This document shows positions 3,887 through 16,217 of a stretch of DNA of 27,885 nucleotides, one piece after another. The translations under genes were made by a program, and so were the position numbers. This stretch comes from a virus. The stretch lies in the IMG/VR virus record IMGVR_UViG_3300042453_000719, positions 1 through 27,885 of that record. One strand, 5' to 3'. Positions within the stretch are counted from its first letter, which is position 1. Each line of letters opens with the position of its first letter. The notes below the pieces were generated by a model. It did not search any database and was not told the origin of the DNA. It worked only from the letters and a program-made list of their open reading frames with translations.

Positions 3887-6547
3887 TTACGGTTTTTCAA
3901 TCATGTAAAAACTTCCAAAGGTTACGTCTGCCCCACTTGTATTAAGCTGCAATGCAAACACAATGTATTGCTGCTGTGTCCAGTTTACCGCTGCCGTAGT
4001 GGTTAAATCGTATAAGCCGTAATCGGTAGCCACGCCTAAGCCGGGTGCAAAATATACCTCGGTGTTATTATTAGCAGTTTTAATTGCAAGATGCCTGATC
4101 ATCTGATTAACCAAGAATGATGGTGCTCCTGCATTCTGATGCGATCCAAGCAAGATTGGTGAGCCGCTAAGGTCAGGAGTTGCATTGGCATAGATGCGCA
4201 AGGTCATTGAATTTGCCGTTCCTGTTTTAGCCGTTCTGTAAGTTATTCTTACCACATCACCTGCTGCAAATGTATTGGCAGGAATTAGCTGAGTATATTT
4301 AACAGTGTTGGCTGTACCTGTATGCGTTGCCGAACTTATGGCAGATTTGTAAACTACCGAAGCAGCCGGTATGGTAGGGAAGGTTGCAAGTGTGCCATCG
4401 CCTCTGATGTACTCCGCTGTGGTTCCTGCTCCTGTCACAGCCAATGTTCCTGATGTGGTCACAGGACTATTGGCCACCGTAAATGCAGCAGGCATGGTTA
4501 GGCCCACAGATGTCACTGTGCCTGTTGGTATGGTCGGGAAGGTTGCAAGGCTGCCATCCCCTCTCAGATATTCTGATGTGGTGCCACCAAGCACATTGCC
4601 CAAAGTTCTATTTTTCCAAAGGTTGTTTACACCAGTGGTATAAACTAAAAATTGATTATTGGCAAGTGGTGTGGTAGTGATGTCCACATCTGACAGCTCA
4701 TCAAGCTGAAAGCCATTCTGCACAAATACATAAATCTGACCATTGCCTGCATTGGCCCTTTCCACAATTCCGATCCTGGTCAAGTGATTAGGTGCCAATG
4801 GCAGCACGTTTGTGAGTGCTCCTGCTGTATTGCCTACGTAAAGAGTATCTCCTGCTGTGTAAGCATTTGTATTTATACCATCAATTACCCCTTGAGTTAT
4901 GATGTAGCCTTTTTGATTCGGCCCAATTGAGCTGCTAAAAACTAAGCCAACAGTCTTGGAACTTGTAGCCTCTGATGTATTATTGGCAAGCTTAACAGTC
5001 ATACGATCTCCAGTTGCACCAAAGGCATAGACTGGCTGACCTCTGTTAATAGTCACACTGTCTGCATTGGTGATGTATGCAAACATCTGATTGGGTGCGA
5101 CACCTAAAAGCTGAAAGTTTGTACCATCATAAATGGCAATGAATTGCTGATTTGCAGCAATGTCTCCTCCAATAATTGGCACCACATTATTCTTTGATAT
5201 ATTGACAGCTCCAAGGCCGTTAATATTTAAAGTGGATGCACCTGTGTTGGCATTGGTGAATCCAATGGCATATGCATCATTGGTATTGTAAGAAGTCACA
5301 CCAGGAATTGATACGGTGTAAGTATCAGTGCCACTGGCTGTGCCCCCCTGCATACCTGTTGCTGCTGTGCTGTCAATGGTGAATGATGGATAGGTGCCGG
5401 TCACAGTTATATCTGTGCCACCTGTTATGCTCACCACCTGATCTGGTGCTGTATTATCAATGGTGAAATTTGGATAAGTACCTGATGTGCTGATGCCTGT
5501 GCCTGCCGTTAATGATACAATCTGATCTGGTGCTGTATTATCAATTGTGACACCTGTTATACTTATTCCTGTGCCGGCTGTGAGCTGATCTTGCTTGCCA
5601 TCGAATGTGGCCCAATCTGCCGAACTAAGATAGCCATCAGTGGTGGCATCAGCTTGAGTGATTGAGATGTCTGGAGTAGCACCACCGCTTGAGGCAATCG
5701 GTGCTGTGCCTGTCACAGATGTGACACCACCACCTCCGCCTCCGCCTGGCACATTAACCTGCACCACACCTGGCGAAGTTAATGAGGCAGTCACTCCTGC
5801 CCCTGTGAAGTTCAATGTGGTGGTATTGGTGCTGACATTCACCCCTTCATCTTGCGTTCTAAGTGGTGTGCTGCCTCCACCTCCGATGGCCACAAGTGGA
5901 TCGGCAGGTGTACCATTGCCAGTGATTGTCACCCCATCCACAGCAACCTCTGTGAGGCAAGGTGTGCAAGGCTCGAAGTCAGGGAGTGGAATATCACCTG
6001 TGGCACAGGTATCATAACAGCCATCCTCACTGCCACTCACCACATTAATATCAACATCAATTGTGACAGATGCCCACTCATAATTTGCAGGCAGGCTCTT
6101 GATCTCATTGGTGTACCCATTGGGCACTACCTCATAAGACACCACACCAATGGCTGTCTTAAATTGTGGATCGGTGCCGCTTATTAGCTTGAGCACCCTT
6201 GATGCAATCCAATCCTGTGCATCAGCAGAGTCACATGGCAGGTGGCTCTTGCGGACCACTGCATTGGCAGATAGGCTGTACTTTGTCTCATACATAGACT
6301 TACAGCCTGCCAATCTAAAGGTCTCAATCTTGTTGACTGATATCTTGCCACGCTTGGCCCAGAACAACGTGCCCTGTTTAGCATCGAAATTGGTCACAGG
6401 GATTGCCTGCCCATTGCCGATGTAGTGAATCCATGCTTTGTCATTGCCATCAGCCGCAAGCTCTGAGAGGCCATATATCTGATCAAAGATATTGCCCACA
6501 GCCACACGTTGATTCAATCTGTCAATTATGGTAGATAGTAAGTTCAT
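3887..6547 (-). CDS. Large tail fibre/adhesin with internal repeats
   Basis: This 886-residue protein probably forms the main host-contact fibre. The first 200 residues look globular (a tail-attachment part with cysteines). Then come PGGGGGGGVTSVTGTAP, the LSSADWATFDGKQDQLTAGT segment common in fibres of Bacteroidota phages, a 28-residue repeat (IDNTAPDQ with VSLTAGTGIS and VSITGGTDIT copies), a central strand-rich region, and a pair of modules carrying EYLRGDGSLATFPTIP and EYIRGDGTLATFPTIP about 53 residues apart. The last 150 residues look like a jelly-roll binding head. No enzyme motif seen. It overlaps the upstream gene by 4 bases (ATGA). The fibre call is strong; the receptor is unknown. 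Confidence 0.85.
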   Translation of the reverse strand: MNLLSTIIDRLNQRVAVGNIFDQIYGLSELAADGNDKAWIHYIGNGQAIPVTNFDAKQGTLFWAKRGKISVNKIETFRLAGCKSMYETKYSLSANAVVRKSHLPCDSADAQDWIASRVLKLISGTDPQFKTAIGVVSYEVVPNGYTNEIKSLPANYEWASVTIDVDINVVSGSEDGCYDTCATGDIPLPDFEPCTPCLTEVAVDGVTITGNGTPADPLVAIGGGGSTPLRTQDEGVNVSTNTTTLNFTGAGVTASLTSPGVVQVNVPGGGGGGGVTSVTGTAPIASSGGATPDISITQADATTDGYLSSADWATFDGKQDQLTAGTGISITGVTIDNTAPDQIVSLTAGTGISTSGTYPNFTIDNTAPDQVVSITGGTDITVTGTYPSFTIDSTAATGMQGGTASGTDTYTVSIPGVTSYNTNDAYAIGFTNANTGASTLNINGLGAVNISKNNVVPIIGGDIAANQQFIAIYDGTNFQLLGVAPNQMFAYITNADSVTINRGQPVYAFGATGDRMTVKLANNTSEATSSKTVGLVFSSSIGPNQKGYIITQGVIDGINTNAYTAGDTLYVGNTAGALTNVLPLAPNHLTRIGIVERANAGNGQIYVFVQNGFQLDELSDVDITTTPLANNQFLVYTTGVNNLWKNRTLGNVLGGTTSEYLRGDGSLATFPTIPTGTVTSVGLTMPAAFTVANSPVTTSGTLAVTGAGTTAEYIRGDGTLATFPTIPAASVVYKSAISSATHTGTANTVKYTQLIPANTFAAGDVVRITYRTAKTGTANSMTLRIYANATPDLSGSPILLGSHQNAGAPSFLVNQMIRHLAIKTANNNTEVYFAPGLGVATDYGLYDLTTTAAVNWTQQQYIVFALQLNTSGADVTFGSFYMIEKP
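4369..4588 (-). repeat. Diverged direct repeat in the fibre gene, 159-base spacing
   Basis: Two related stretches of about 60 bases start near 4369 and 4528. They encode the paired modules EYIRGDGTLATFPTIP and EYLRGDGSLATFPTIP. The divergence is mostly at silent positions, which points to old duplication kept under protein selection. Confidence 0.7.
5439..5550 (-). repeat. Direct repeat in the fibre gene, 84-base period
   Basis: A 28-base string at 5439-5466 recurs at 5523-5550 with one difference. The 84-base period is 28 codons and encodes the repeated IDNTAPDQ-VSLTAGTGIS unit; a third, more diverged protein copy ends in IDSTAATG. Such repeats can vary in number by recombination. Confidence 0.75.
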
Positions 6548-8161: not shown

Positions 8162-8169
8162 CAAAGATA
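8162..8169 (-). promoter_or_regulatory. -7 box fused to the capsid terminator
   Basis: TATCTTTG begins inside the T run of the capsid terminator and lies 14 bases before ATG 8147. No TTG at the usual distance is visible because the hairpin occupies that place. The same terminator-then-box design occurs at 9448-9482 and 9362-9417. Confidence 0.55.
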
Positions 8170-8196
8170 AAAAAAAAGGGCCGCACATGGCAGCCC
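8169..8196 (-). terminator. Terminator of the major capsid gene
   Basis: On the minus strand GGGCTGC (8196-8190), loop CATGT, GCGGCCC (8184-8178) forms a 7-pair stem with one G-T pair, followed directly by nine T. It lies 24 bases past the capsid stop. Confidence 0.8.
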
Positions 8197-8219
8197 TCTT
8201 TTTAGTTAATCAATCACCC

Positions 8220-9263
8220 CTATGGATTAACAATGCTTACGCAATTCACATAGTTCACACCTGCGAATTTATCAGCAGCCTCATAGATGTCAGTTGGCAA
8301 TGTTACGATCTTACCAGTTGTAGTCAATACAATTGATAAGTTGCCACAGTCATCTTTCATGGTAAGATCAACAGGTACTCCTGCCGGTGTAAACACCAAA
8401 GTCTTAGAGTAGTTGCTTCCTGCCACTGGAGTGATGCCAGTATTCCAATCAGCTAAGTTGAAAGATAGCCACTGGATTGCTCCTGCTGTGGTCACCAATG
8501 CCTTAGACTGAGATCCCTGAGCAGCAGCCAAACGTGCATCGTAAGCAAATCCAAAGCCGTTTTGCTGAGTGATGGCAAGAAGATCAAGGCCATACTGTGA
8601 GCAGCAGCCTGCTGCCATTGCATTAGCATAACGCTGCATGGCAGCACCACCAAATGCCACAGGAGCACCAGGATAGTTGGCCATACGAGTTGCCTGCTGA
8701 ATGTCAGCAATTGCAAATGGATTAGGCTCAGTTGTGCCGTTCATGGTAGCAATCTGCAAGCAGTCAGAAGATACAGTGTAGAAATCTTCTACATCAGTAC
8801 CCCATGCACCAGTCTCAGCAACAGCTTGAGTGGCAGCAGCAGAGGCAACCTTGCGATCAATCACATCCATCAAGCGCATAACTGACTCAAGTACATATCG
8901 AGAATTCTCCTGGCAGTGACGTGCGATATCAGCAGCATTGATAAGCTGTGATGCAACATAAGTATCAGTGGTGTCCACAGTGTAGGTGGTAGTGCTGTCA
9001 CCGTATGTGTTTTCAGAAGTACATGTAAGGATGTCACCACCCTCAGTCACTTCTGTCTCAGGCAAACGCTGAATCCAACGTGCTTGAACGGTCTTAAGTT
9101 TACCACCGCCTGGAGATACCTCAGTGCGGATAAGTTTTGAATTTTCTGGTGAAAGCAAAAACTCCAAAAATGGAAGCTGCTCTCTTTGGCCCACTTCAAT
9201 GAAGAGCTCAGATAATGACATCTGAACATTAGGGCATTCTGAAAGAATACGTGAAATTGACAT
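8220..9263 (-). CDS. Major capsid protein candidate, 347 aa
   Basis: I start at ATG 9263 (MSISRILSECPNVQMSLSEL); the frame extends to 9326, but that part would contain the leader hairpin. Length, place after a scaffold-like gene, isolation between a strong promoter array and a strong terminator, and even, soluble composition all fit the main head protein, presumably of HK97 fold. Visible parts include an N-terminal helix region, an E-loop-like strand region (KLKTVQARWIQRLPETEVTE), a long helix with a basic Arg-rich part (QENSRYVLESVMRLMDVIDR) and a C-terminal strand domain. Eight cysteines are unusual for a capsid protein. Identity is inferred from context, as I do not recognise the sequence itself. 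Confidence 0.75.
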   Translation of the reverse strand: MSISRILSECPNVQMSLSELFIEVGQREQLPFLEFLLSPENSKLIRTEVSPGGGKLKTVQARWIQRLPETEVTEGGDILTCTSENTYGDSTTTYTVDTTDTYVASQLINAADIARHCQENSRYVLESVMRLMDVIDRKVASAAATQAVAETGAWGTDVEDFYTVSSDCLQIATMNGTTEPNPFAIADIQQATRMANYPGAPVAFGGAAMQRYANAMAAGCCSQYGLDLLAITQQNGFGFAYDARLAAAQGSQSKALVTTAGAIQWLSFNLADWNTGITPVAGSNYSKTLVFTPAGVPVDLTMKDDCGNLSIVLTTTGKIVTLPTDIYEAADKFAGVNYVNCVSIVNP

Positions 9264-9284
9264 AGTTAAAATGTAAATGGTTTG

Positions 9285-9307
9285 CCTTAGATTATTAGGC
9301 TCTAAGG
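9285..9307 (-). promoter_or_regulatory. Hairpin in the capsid mRNA leader
   Basis: Arms CCTTAGA and TCTAAGG pair perfectly over 7 bases around a 9-base loop, 22 bases before the capsid ATG. The leader from the 9362 promoter is about 93 bases. With no T run after it, the hairpin is more likely a stabiliser or translation control element than a terminator. Confidence 0.5.
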
Positions 9308-9361
9308 TTCTGCCTACATTGCACAATTAAGTGGGTGCTCACTACATCATCACAGATGGCA

Positions 9362-9394
9362 CAAAGATAATAAATAAATCAATCAAAAAAGCAA
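9362..9394 (-). promoter_or_regulatory. Capsid-proximal promoter (P3 of the array)
   Basis: TTG (9394-9392), 22 bases, then TATCTTTG (9369-9362), extended to TTATTATCTTTGTGC. It lies directly after the T run of the terminator at 9385-9417 and shares the 15-base extended box with P2 at 9448-9455, which suggests duplication. Confidence 0.75.
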
Positions 9395-9417
9395 GGGCCT
9401 GCATCACTGCAAGCCCT
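9385..9417 (-). terminator. Hairpin terminator between P2 and P3
   Basis: On the minus strand AGGGCTTGCA (9417-9408), loop GTGA, TGCAGGCCCT (9403-9394) gives ten pairs with one G-T, then TTGC and six T. It would end a transcript from the P2 box after about 58 bases, with no gene between. Confidence 0.75.
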
Positions 9418-9447
9418 AATCCCTAAACTATGATTGAATCAGATGCA

Positions 9448-9455
9448 CAAAGATA
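9448..9455 (-). promoter_or_regulatory. Middle promoter of the array (P2)
   Basis: Extended box TTATTATCTTTGTGC, identical over 15 bases to P3. The nearest TTG is only 14 bases upstream, inside the hairpin, so the -33 part is poor. It starts in the T run of the terminator at 9458-9482. Confidence 0.6.
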
Positions 9456-9457
9456 AT

Positions 9458-9482
9458 AAAAAAAGCCTGCAATGAAGCAGGC
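9458..9482 (-). terminator. Hairpin terminator between P1 and P2
   Basis: On the minus strand GCCTGC (9482-9477), loop TTCATT, GCAGGC (9470-9465), then seven T. It lies about 42 bases past the stop of the 9524-9796 gene and also about 53 bases after the expected start from the P1 box. Confidence 0.8.
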
Positions 9483-9515
9483 CTTTCAAACACAAAGAAT
9501 GACTAATACACTTTA

Positions 9516-9546
9516 CAAAGATATTAAGGCAGGTCAATTTTTCCAA
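9516..9546 (-). promoter_or_regulatory. Upstream promoter of the array (P1)
   Basis: TTG (9546-9544; TTTG if one base more is counted), 20 bases, then TATCTTTG (9523-9516). The box starts right at the stop codon of the 9524-9796 gene. There is no gene between it and the next terminator, so its product would be a short RNA of about 53 bases unless read-through occurs. Confidence 0.6.
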
Positions 9547-9796
9547 AAAAAGGTTTGTCACTTACAGACCGCCTACCTTCACAGCTCCACAATTGACGAG
9601 CCCACCAATTGGCAGAGCCCCTTGGTGAAGGGATGCCTGCACTTCTGGCACAGTAAGAATTACCTGCATCAGTGCCGGGATTTATACGGTAGCCAGAAGC
9701 TCCAAAGTGAATCTCATTGCCATCATCATCAACGGCCTTGTACTTCTTGCCGTCCCGATCTGAGGCCGTTACATTGTAACCTTCATAAATTGGCAT
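9524..9796 (-). CDS. Small phage protein with GASGY/YCARS/WSCEG motifs, 90 aa
   Basis: The product begins MPIYEGYNVTASDRDGKKYK. The second half carries FGASGYRINPGT, GNSYCARSAGI and WWARQLWSCEGRRS. I recall this GxxGY-PGT-YCARS-LWxCxG pattern from a widespread small protein of phages and large viruses, often near head genes, but its function is not established and I cannot name the family surely. Two cysteines and the many aromatic and basic residues suggest a compact fold, perhaps nucleic-acid or metal binding. The start overlaps the previous gene by 14 bases in another frame. It is the last gene before the capsid promoter array. Confidence 0.7.
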   Translation of the reverse strand: MPIYEGYNVTASDRDGKKYKAVDDDGNEIHFGASGYRINPGTDAGNSYCARSAGIPSPRGSANWWARQLWSCEGRRSVSDKPFFGKIDLP

Positions 9797-9941
9797 GGCT
9801 ATTATTTATTTTATTATCCAAATATACCAATACAATCTCAAGTGCCCTGGTTAAATCATTGGCAGGCACCTGTTCTCCACTCTTGCCAGTCCTCCATTCG
9901 GAGTGCTGCTTGAGGATTTTAAATGCTTGCCTGATTGTCAT
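9783..9941 (-). CDS. Small helical phage protein, 52 aa
   Basis: ATG 9941 overlaps the scaffold stop as ATGA, and the frame ends at TGA 9785-9783. The product begins MTIRQAFKILKQHSEWRTGK, with a second helix TRALEIVLVYLDNKIN. Small proteins with an LKQHxEWRxG start and a following A/L-rich helix are common in phage genomes as unassigned genes. The overlaps on both sides (4 bases upstream, 14 downstream) support that it is translated. Function unknown. Confidence 0.65.
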   Translation of the reverse strand: MTIRQAFKILKQHSEWRTGKSGEQVPANDLTRALEIVLVYLDNKINNSHANL

Positions 9942-10762
9942 TTGCTGAAAAATCTTGGATTAATACCTCTGATTTTTTTATCTGTTTGCGGCTCAAGCTG
10001 TGGGATCACAGGGCTGCCAGGTCTGACCACTCTTTGGCCGGCTGTTGGGTTCTTCATAACAATCCCTGCTGCTGTGGCCTCTTGCAAGAGCACATCAGAT
10101 AAATTCAAGAATGATCCTGCTTTCTCTTTTGACTTTAAACGCTCTCCACTTTTACGGTCCTTCACATACACATTGCCATCCTCTTCTAAGTCAATGGCAT
10201 ACTTCTCACCAATGGTGGCCTTGAATCCCTTAATGGTAAACTCATTAACTGATGGATCAAGCTTGATTGAGGATAGTTCTTTTTCAAATGTGTGGTTTAT
10301 TTTAGATTGCTTCTGCTCCTCTGCAATCTTGATCTTGAATTGCTCAAATTGGGTGATGGCTTCTTGCCTCGCACCATCCACTTCATTCACCTTTTTTTCA
10401 AGGGACTTATATTTTTTCTCCCACTCCTTCACAAGCTCCTCAGAGCCTGACTTATCAGCACGCTGCTGCCACTCCTCTTGCATCTTCTCATAATTATCTC
10501 TTGCCTTTTCAGAGGCCATCCGTAGTACATCCTGTGCCTTTTTATCTTTAAAATCATCCTCAGTAAGGGTCACTCCAAAGGGCTCAAATGCTCTCTTGGC
10601 TACATGGGCAATGGTGCCATTGATCTTGCCAATCTTGTCATTTAGCTCCTTGCTATTGACCCAATTCTCCTGGAATTTCTCCTTTGCCTCCTCGAGGCTT
10701 TCTGTTTCGTTTAGGTTTAGGAAGTTCACCAGTTCCAGTGCTTCCTCCGGTTTGATTGCCAT
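9938..10762 (-). CDS. Capsid scaffolding protein candidate
   Basis: This 274-residue, highly charged protein has a central coiled-coil stretch (about 75-175; EEWQQRADKSGSEELVKEWE and on), a mixed region and a basic C-terminus (GINPRFFSK). Very high Glu/Lys content, long helices and place between the portal/MuF genes and the capsid gene are typical of phage scaffolds such as gp20-type minor structural proteins, which guide shell assembly and are then removed. The basic tail would bind the capsid protein. No protease is visible in the window, so whether it is cleaved or leaves intact is open. The start at 10762 lies inside the previous gene by 110 bases, but a stop just upstream in this frame rules out a longer start. 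Confidence 0.75.
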   Translation of the reverse strand: MAIKPEEALELVNFLNLNETESLEEAKEKFQENWVNSKELNDKIGKINGTIAHVAKRAFEPFGVTLTEDDFKDKKAQDVLRMASEKARDNYEKMQEEWQQRADKSGSEELVKEWEKKYKSLEKKVNEVDGARQEAITQFEQFKIKIAEEQKQSKINHTFEKELSSIKLDPSVNEFTIKGFKATIGEKYAIDLEEDGNVYVKDRKSGERLKSKEKAGSFLNLSDVLLQEATAAGIVMKNPTAGQRVVRPGSPVIPQLEPQTDKKIRGINPRFFSK

Positions 10763-10887: not shown

Positions 10888-10918
10888 CAAAGATAATGTA
10901 TTGTAAATTCAAAAGCAA
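10888..10918 (-). promoter_or_regulatory. Promoter of the scaffold-capsid unit
   Basis: TTG (10918-10916), 20 bases, TATCTTTG (10895-10888), then TGGC and ATG. Both boxes match the Bacteroidota consensus, with the start codon where transcription should begin. It is divergent from the rightward promoter at 10984-11013. Confidence 0.8.
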
Positions 10919-14747: not shown

Positions 14748-15681
14748 GTTTATTTGAGATTATACGATGGATAAAATATTTGTGCATCTTGTTTTCCTCC
14801 CTCATCCACGACTTAAGCAGCCTATCAAGCCACTCAATGTAAAAGGCAGGTGTGAAGCCTTGCCCACCATAGTAAGATTGAAGGTAGTACAATTGTGTGA
14901 CTTGTGCATAGTTCATCCCCCTGCGATCTGTGAAGTGGATGAAGCCAATCTCTGCATGGTCATTGCGGCCCACCTCACCAATGGCAGGATCCATCCCTAA
15001 CTTAGCCAAAGCACAGTTCATGTATAGCTCATCTGGCTGCCCACCGCCCCACTTGGTGCGGAGTTTGGCAATCGGGATTGGATTATGGTGGTAGTAATCT
15101 TGAGCCACCTTAAAAAGATTCAATGACTCATTGCACTTCTTAATATATTGAATGCTGCTATTGATGGCAGGCAGTACAGTCTTTTCATCAAAGTTATATT
15201 GACTCCAAATGTCATCAGCCCATGCCCACTGCATGGAGTCAATCTTGCGCCCCTGATCAATGGTGTGATAGCCTACACAATGGCTTGCATACGGTTTGCC
15301 ACTTTGGATCAGCACATCAATCATTGGCTGAATGTCTTTTAAGGCCACTGCATCCACATCCAAATATACGTTGTGTGTGAATGGCAGGTAATAATATAGA
15401 TTAACCTTTGCCTTGCCTGGATCAATCTTTTTGTTGGTGTAAAGGTTCTCCTGCAAGATGGGCCGGATCACATCCACCACCTCATGAAGATCACCACAGT
15501 ATTTATCCACATCCTCCTTGCTTTCAACCAAGCAGGCAATCTGAATGGACTTATTAAACCTCTTAATTGAATAGGCTAAGTTATAAGCAGCCCAATAATA
15601 TTGCGGCCTGCCAAATGCCATGAGCACCACCCCTGTATCAGAGGCAGTGCTGTGGCTTATTTGTTGGCTTGTTTCCATCAT
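14728..15681 (-). CDS. GT-A type glycosyltransferase
   Basis: This 317-residue protein has an N-terminal nucleotide-sugar-binding pattern (GVVLMAFGRPQYYWAAYNLA, then SIQIACLVESKED) and a D-x-D motif, Asp108-Val-Asp110 in HNVYLDVDAVALKD, which binds metal and the nucleotide sugar in GT-A enzymes, here most like GT8-type. Further motifs include GGGQPDELYMNCALAKLG and IGFIHFTDRRGM, where the His probably lies near the metal. No membrane anchor is seen, so it acts in the cytoplasm. Its start shares the A of the upstream stop (TAATG), tying it to the tail-tube candidate. Donor and acceptor are unknown; virion protein or phage DNA are both possible targets. Confidence 0.8.
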   Translation of the reverse strand: MMETSQQISHSTASDTGVVLMAFGRPQYYWAAYNLAYSIKRFNKSIQIACLVESKEDVDKYCGDLHEVVDVIRPILQENLYTNKKIDPGKAKVNLYYYLPFTHNVYLDVDAVALKDIQPMIDVLIQSGKPYASHCVGYHTIDQGRKIDSMQWAWADDIWSQYNFDEKTVLPAINSSIQYIKKCNESLNLFKVAQDYYHHNPIPIAKLRTKWGGGQPDELYMNCALAKLGMDPAIGEVGRNDHAEIGFIHFTDRRGMNYAQVTQLYYLQSYYGGQGFTPAFYIEWLDRLLKSWMREENKMHKYFIHRIISNKHADPKR

Positions 15682-16217
15682 TAGAATACACCTGGAGGCG
15701 CATCATACTGTGAAGGAATATTTTTGTCCCTCCAAGAGAATGTTACCTCATAACGCTGAAGCTCATTATTCTGCTCAGGTATGATGAAGTTGGCAGATGT
15801 GGTAATGCCCACAGACGGATTGATGTAAATCACCTTACCTGAGTCGCAAGCATAGGCCAATATCCAGGCTATCCTGCGATTGTTTACATCATTCCAAAAA
15901 GCATTATTCTCATCTGTCACGTTTGCATCATATAAAGTGGCAGTACGATCTTCATTGATACGGATTGGAGTTCCGCATCCGATTGGTGAATCAACTGTTA
16001 CCGGTGATCCGGCAGGAAGAGCAAAGCGGATATCTTGAATCAATTTAGCAGTGCCGGCTGATATTAAGGCATTGACCTCAGTCTCATCTGAAGGATCAAC
16101 CAATTCAGTACCGCATGCACCCACAAGAATTGCAGAAACACCGCCAAGCTTATAATCATTACAGTTGATCAGGTTGTGGTCAAGCAGCGACGAATCGCAA
16201 TAACTAACGCATCCCAT
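15681..16217 (-). CDS. Candidate tail tube protein, 178 aa
   Basis: The N-terminus is cysteine-rich (MGCVSYCDSSLLDHNLINCN), followed by strands, a middle with RFALPAGSPVTVDSPIGCGT, and a C-terminus ending in YEVTFSWRDKNIPSQYDAPP. The late strand with a VTFSW-type motif and the size fit a major tail protein, which stacks in rings to form the tube. Its own promoter with a roughly 75-base leader also suggests high copy number. Six cysteines are unusual. The place, after the distal tail genes rather than before the chaperone genes, is not the usual one for a tube protein, so a baseplate or decoration role remains open. Confidence 0.5.
   Translation of the reverse strand: MGCVSYCDSSLLDHNLINCNDYKLGGVSAILVGACGTELVDPSDETEVNALISAGTAKLIQDIRFALPAGSPVTVDSPIGCGTPIRINEDRTATLYDANVTDENNAFWNDVNNRRIAWILAYACDSGKVIYINPSVGITTSANFIIPEQNNELQRYEVTFSWRDKNIPSQYDAPPGVF

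Follow-up and report, generated by a model that had tools for sequence, protein, structure and literature searches.

Folded operators are known in phage mRNA leaders, among them those of T4 genes 32 and 43 (PMC3014915, PMC535899). The gene 32 operator of T4 and RB69 is described as a pseudoknotted fold upstream of the start of one phage gene, with a sequence that diverges between relatives (PMC535899, PMC3014915), and in the rpsO/S15 operator a leader pseudoknot is described as controlling translation of the downstream gene (PMC3014915). On the side of transcription, Bacteroidota promoters combine a −33 element (TTTG) with a −7 element, for which the consensus TAHHTTTG is reported in Flavobacterium; in that genus, transcription is reported to start 4–5 nt behind the −7 box, with a −33 element that is less evident than the AT-rich stretches at −18 and −28 (PMC6847099).

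The window analysed here, the whole stretch of 27,885 bases, is one entire virus record, and its minus strand carries a predicted leader of ~94 nt upstream of a capsid-like gene. Like the gene 32 operator, this leader has a likely pseudoknot upstream of the start of a single phage gene and a diverging sequence, but here the gene is capsid-like, the fold has a pair of covarying hairpins, and a predicted outer helix extends onto the start codon; we claim no homology. The rpsO/S15 operator is likened to the leader by its description, and the gene controlled there is that of a host ribosomal protein. The boxes upstream of the leader match the −7 element of Bacteroidota, but here the box is fused to the T-run of a terminator-like hairpin, and the second and third boxes (P2 and P3) have a poor −33 element. 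We give a probability of roughly 0.5 to the reading in which this region controls a transcription unit dedicated to the capsid-like gene, combining insulation with a folded leader that tunes translation. The features of the region are as follows.

9524–9796, minus strand: upstream ORF, DUF5754-like, 90 aa (Pfam E 1.7e-7)
9516–9523, minus strand: P1 box, TATCTTTG, with TTTG 20 nt upstream at 9544–9547
9458–9487, minus strand: hairpin 1 (9487–9460) with T-run, terminator-like
9448–9455, minus strand: P2 box, TATCTTTG, inside a 16-base stretch common with P3
9385–9417, minus strand: hairpin 2 (9417–9394) with T-run (9390–9385), terminator-like
9362–9369, minus strand: P3 box, TATCTTTG, the final box ahead of the capsid-like gene
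9264–9357, minus strand: folded leader RNA, from the predicted start 4–5 nt past the box to the base 5′ of the ATG
9258–9349, minus strand: outer helix P1h of the minimum-free-energy (MFE) fold, 9349–9341 with 9266–9258, weak covariation
9321–9338, minus strand: leader hairpin P2h, 9338–9334 with 9325–9321, covarying in relatives
9312–9317, minus strand: invariant GUAGGC, with a GGC complementary to the GCC in the P4 loop
9285–9307, minus strand: leader hairpin P4, 9307–9301 with 9291–9285, loop GCCUAAUAA, covarying in relatives
9270–9320, minus strand: possible helix P3h of the MFE fold, AAUGUA 9320–9315 with UACAUU 9275–9270, unsupported by the swap test
8220–9263, minus strand: capsid-like gene, 347 aa, no family match
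8162–8203, minus strand: post-gene hairpin (8203–8171) fused to a TATCTTTG box (8169–8162), terminator-like

The gene behind the leader starts at ATG 9263 (MSISRILSEC), a start conserved in relatives, and its protein is 82–95% identical to that of the window in 15 relatives chosen for diversity, the first one being set aside. Its place behind the portal gene, its conservation and its own expression unit make it a plausible capsid. Searches for capsid homology through PHROGs, Pfam, PDB profiles and tblastn of phage records gave nothing useful, and relatives of the protein were found neither in 84,980 bacterial and archaeal genomes nor in deposited phages. An AlphaFold2 model built with 16 close sequences reached a pLDDT of 30 and is unusable. 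Over 84% of its length, the window's portal shares 21.5% identity with the portal of Polaribacter phage P12002L; the virion protein gp17 of that phage did not match the capsid-like protein.

The strongest signal in the region, as judged from sequence comparison, is the leader as a putative conserved folded RNA; it was absent from the sequence-only reading of this DNA. The P3 box and the ATG are separated by 98 nt, and the predicted 5′ end is placed by the start spacing reported for Flavobacterium (PMC6847099). In an alignment of 65 of the 66 distinct leaders (A1; L169 omitted), GTAGT, GTAGGC (GUAGU and GUAGGC in the RNA) and parts of the GCCT...AA loop are invariant, most else is variable, and much of the variation sits in the two hairpins. 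The GGC of GUAGGC would likely form a pseudoknot with the GCC in the loop of P4. The invariant GUAGU might have reflected a minimal upstream ORF (AUG-AUG-UAG), but only 24 of the 65 leaders have one, and this explanation was rejected.

RNAalifold returned no pairs on the 65-row A1, a blank that we think reflects misplacement of the 3′ side by MAFFT, and pairs were therefore counted on two further alignments. A3 is a MAFFT alignment of 15 of 28 core sequences that have like spacing and a gap in one column only. Standard pairing holds in 179 of the 180 hairpin cells, and both sides have changed in 10 of the 12 pairs, with a covariation score of 0.804 against 0.295 (sd 0.037) after shuffling and at most 0.125 when the partners are slid. 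A4, with 28 distinct rows fitted to the model, is 95.1% paired and scores 0.794 against 0.226 (sd 0.026) shuffled; the leader-model sample comprises 38 sources that were picked as matching or resembling the model. Fifteen of the 180 A3 cells are G-U pairs, which would not pair if read on the opposite strand, so that the fold belongs to the transcript strand.

An alignment-free test, in which stem arms were swapped among 13 leaders less than 80% alike, gave a consistent picture for the hairpins. Swapping breaks P4 (z −7.7) and P2h (z −5.6); its effect on P1h is weak (p 0.009), and it lends no support to P3h among these 13 leaders (p 0.36); the pseudoknot pairing is nearly invariant across them, so the swap is uninformative there. 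Compensatory stem changes among relatives, as expected of a structured cis-regulatory leader, are thus present in P2h and P4. In the window itself the P2h pair 9334/9325, next to the loop, is a mismatch, and the MFE of the whole leader lies barely under that of shuffled sequences (z −1.0); of five other leaders folded, four have z from −2.1 to −2.6 and one −0.8.

The predicted outer helix connects the fold to the start of the gene. In the MFE structure of the window leader, 9349–9341 pairs with 9266–9258, a segment that contains the start codon (9263–9261), and the folding prediction gives the start codon a pairing probability of 0.99; the start region of the capsid-like gene is the most paired among 26 gene starts in the window. 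Pairing of the start codon with the first 30 nt at a probability of at least 0.5 is predicted in 38 of 65 leaders, and its occlusion is therefore not universal. Other lineages have different outer-helix partners, for example UAUGGUAGUCG with CGACUAUCAUG, and an outer helix may be present in every lineage. Pairing close to the start codon is reported to accompany lower translation in Flavobacterium, where an A at −3 is reported as a positive signal (PMC6847099); this A is kept in 61 of 65 leaders. We think that the leader controls translation of the capsid-like protein.

The main rival to translation control is mRNA stability, an explanation that we regard as unlikely without dismissing it: the leader would be a compact 5′ end that guards an abundant late mRNA and leaves translation uncontrolled. 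The outer helix of the window does start within ~10 nt of the predicted 5′ end, and the 5′ end is not the main pairing partner of the start codon in 27 of 65 leaders, as a stabiliser would allow; a stabiliser has, however, no obvious need for invariant GUAGU and GUAGGC. We rank translation control over stability because the fold touches the start-codon region in the window and in most leaders.

The leader was followed across relatives with a model (R1) run on the window plus 99 of the 109 distinct contigs. At E ≤0.01 it matches the window and 56 of the 99 other sources, always at the leader position before the capsid-like gene. Among 30 whole records at the same threshold, 18 have one strong match, 11 have none, and one (G028, the record of L024) has two. 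This second leader was considered as marking a second gene and rejected, since two strain versions have most likely been joined at the contig ends, probably in assembly. L239 (266–328) and L240, at the opposite record end, carry two strain versions of the leader and capsid start of that record. Leaders of the ATGGTAGTC type (22 of 65) and the ATGTGTAGTC type (8 of 65) gave no R1 match at E ≤0.01; the invariant motifs and hairpins suggest that they have the same fold. Four of 39 pattern matches (L204, L205, L207 and L233) were set aside as having neither a model match nor a capsid start behind them.

In a sister group (L131, L143, L163–L168, L172, L176–L181, L184, L186 and L189), no TAnnTTTG box was found before the capsid-like gene in 15 distinct upstream sequences, which remain of 17 that are box-less in the slot after L195 (2 nt) and L173 (starting within the leader) were dropped. 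By eye, the leader of this group, which lies behind TAAATTTA, has AGGC / GCCT and a hairpin whose arms change in a matched way.

With respect to catalogued RNAs, the Rfam 15 covariance models gave no match in the whole window at the gathering cut-off; under relaxed settings, the matches in the window, L104 and L160 all stayed below threshold and lay around the terminator hairpins. The putative fold would accordingly represent an uncatalogued RNA, with no family in Rfam 15, and our searches of open PubMed Central papers gave no description of the leader or of a fused terminator-promoter.

Upstream of the leader, the three boxes each read TATCTTTG on the minus strand and match the −7 element TAHHTTTG of Bacteroidota primary-sigma promoters. 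The sequence-only reading had placed three −7 boxes here (9516, 9448 and 9362), alternating with two strong hairpins and T-runs and with no gene in between, and all of this holds: the three minus-strand boxes alternate with two hairpins, and no minus-strand ORF of at least 60 aa lies between P1 and P3. A plus-strand ORF (9472–9948) that overlaps the array was judged not credible on the opposite strand. The P1 box abuts the stop codon of the DUF5754-like ORF. TTTG occurs 20 nt upstream of P1, P2 has no −33 element at that distance and P3 has CTTG at 22 nt; Flavobacterium promoters likewise have a weak −33 element. Across the whole window the minus strand has 11 copies of TATCTTTG and the plus strand 2, and TTATCTTTGT is present 6 times on the minus strand and never on the plus strand. 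The boxes would act as promoters. Their fit to the Flavobacterium −7 element, together with the weak portal similarity to Polaribacter phage P12002L, points to a Bacteroidota host.

Two more TTATCTTTGT boxes lie on the minus strand at 10895 and 16306, ahead of ORFs 9938–10762 and 15681–16217; a hairpin fused to them was looked for at both places and none was found.

P2 and P3 do share a stretch, as had been proposed, and its length is 16 bases (TTTATTATCTTTGTGC) rather than 15. The module duplication drawn from it is plausible given these shared bases in the window, although P2 and P3 differ in the L004–L006 group. The two boxes also change together, both being TATCTTTG in the window and both TACCTTTG in L007–L009, hinting at exchange between the two box copies.

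Both array hairpins carry the hallmark of intrinsic terminators, a G+C-rich stem followed by a T-run, and would presumably act as such. Hairpin 1 has a folding energy of −16.8 kcal/mol (z −4.9 against shuffles) and hairpin 2 of −18.0 kcal/mol (z −4.4). The terminator-box unit that had been noticed 3′ of the capsid gene is confirmed, as a hairpin and box at 8162–8203; the folded fragment has an energy of −19.6 kcal/mol (z −4.6), and the hairpin leads into the box at 8169–8162. Between 7500 and 11500 there are 10 terminator-like sites, against 3.4 (sd 1.9) in shuffles, and the three best paired of the ten are these three hairpins.

The array was compared across relatives from three viral-contig scans, each consisting of the best 80 of 209–227 matches and together yielding 109 distinct contigs; the counts describe these best-80 samples, and the contigs are related and non-independent. 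Of the 99 distinct contigs whose upstream sequence is 320 nt or longer, 85 carry a TAnnTTTG box 75–130 nt 5′ of the ATG, against ~2.5 expected from the box density elsewhere in the loci, and in 69 the last box has a strong hairpin and T-run no more than 30 nt away (7–11 nt in 49). In 4 of the 99 a hairpin occurs only at 94–104 nt, and in 26 none was found, 13 of these having neither box nor hairpin. The finder overlooked hairpins seen by eye (L004–L006 and the L010 group), so that the counts are low rather than high, and its weaker matches include some inside genes. Behind the gene, 96 of 108 contigs have a hairpin and box, 10 a box alone and 2 neither. The hairpins keep their terminator form while their sequences differ. 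The upstream gene is variable, with one terminal motif in 40 contigs, another in 28 and neither in 31.

The sequence-only reading had left two outcomes open, insulated promoters or two abundant short RNAs, and had named alignment of relatives as a check. That comparison divides: the exact order box-hairpin-box-hairpin-box is found in only 5 of 99 contigs, four of them close relatives and the fifth L138, and the spacers are poorly kept, whereas the hairpin by the last box is widespread (69/99). Because the unit hairpin-promoter-leader-gene-hairpin-promoter is constant while its neighbours vary, insulation is favoured over conserved short RNAs on these comparisons; the box in 85 of 99 contigs, the hairpin near it and the post-gene unit in 96 of 108 all support insulated promoters. 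Functional RNAs of ~53 and ~58 nt from P1 and P2 are improbable. Their hairpins are stable (z −4.9 and −4.4), and boxes lie 0–2 nt past the stop codons of two different upstream genes, then followed by a hairpin (22 of 40 contigs with the first motif, 14 of 28 with the second); against this stand the rarity of the three-box form, the missing −33 element of P2, and spacers that between the close group and L138 are 0.42–0.50 alike, compared with 0.62–0.65 for the leader. Such RNAs may be produced from P1 and P2 as by-products.

A further explanation takes the boxes and hairpins mainly as joints for the exchange of gene blocks, with a secondary promoter role for P1 and P2. Different upstream genes do end at the same box, and the box changes common to P2 and P3 in the window and in L007–L009 would fit; a mere homology joint, however, has no need of a terminator form that is kept with differing sequences, and we hold this explanation to be very doubtful. 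That the leader is a small-molecule riboswitch opening or closing the start region is the least probable of all, since its compact fold, with variable stems and with invariant bases that are unpaired or in the pseudoknot, is set against the lack of an Rfam class match and a position before one structural gene only, unusual for a metabolite sensor.

The 3′ end of the gene shows a feature of its own. In most relatives a −1 frame of ~26 codons is kept beyond the capsid-like stop, without an ATG in six examples of that frame; in L194 the extension lies at about 4371–4455, and the window equivalent would be at about 8220–8160. A_AAC_CCN in the final codons and the conserved tail occur together in 70 of 98 distinct 3′ ends and are both absent from 22; each occurs without the other in 3. 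The sequences are related, so that a Fisher test overstates the association. In 39 sequences, pN/pS is 0.32 in the −1 frame and 0.91 and 1.62 in the other two. Programmed −1 frameshifts that extend the capsid are described in several phages (PMC5009743), and a programmed −1 frameshift giving a longer capsid-like protein is probable in most relatives. The window has neither the slippery A_AAC_CCN site nor the conserved tail.

On the reading of a dedicated transcription unit, the hairpin terminators would halt transcription coming from the variable upstream genes, and transcription would restart from the next −7 box, into or near which the T-run reaches. Each T-run falls where a Bacteroidota promoter is AT-rich, and it would therefore probably double as the U-tract of the terminator and the AT-rich stretch of the promoter. 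The P3 transcript would start with the ~94-nt folded leader, comprising the outer helix, two variable hairpins and the likely pseudoknot, and a similar hairpin and promoter unit would close the 3′ side of the gene. Most likely, the fold would hold the start region until opening or binding, and in this way tune translation of the capsid-like gene; the binder could perhaps be the capsid-like protein itself.

A bolder version of this reading, which we consider quite unlikely, places the leader in a new class of RNAs that sense free capsid protein: unassembled subunits would bind the folded 5′ end and shut off their own translation, and the fused units would hand just-terminated polymerase to the capsid promoter. 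Recycling of RNA polymerase after termination is reportedly known from single-molecule work in E. coli. By such recycling after intrinsic termination, a nearby promoter could catch a just-terminated polymerase (PMC6978380, PMC6978322). If this version were true, the output of shell protein would be set by assembly, not by upstream transcription.

The means by which tailed phages adjust the supply of shell protein to assembly are, to our knowledge, poorly known beyond a few models. The covarying leader, attached to a single structural gene across a large group of uncultured phages that probably infect Bacteroidota, offers a concrete candidate for a control element, and the fused terminator-promoter would be a compact regulatory part.
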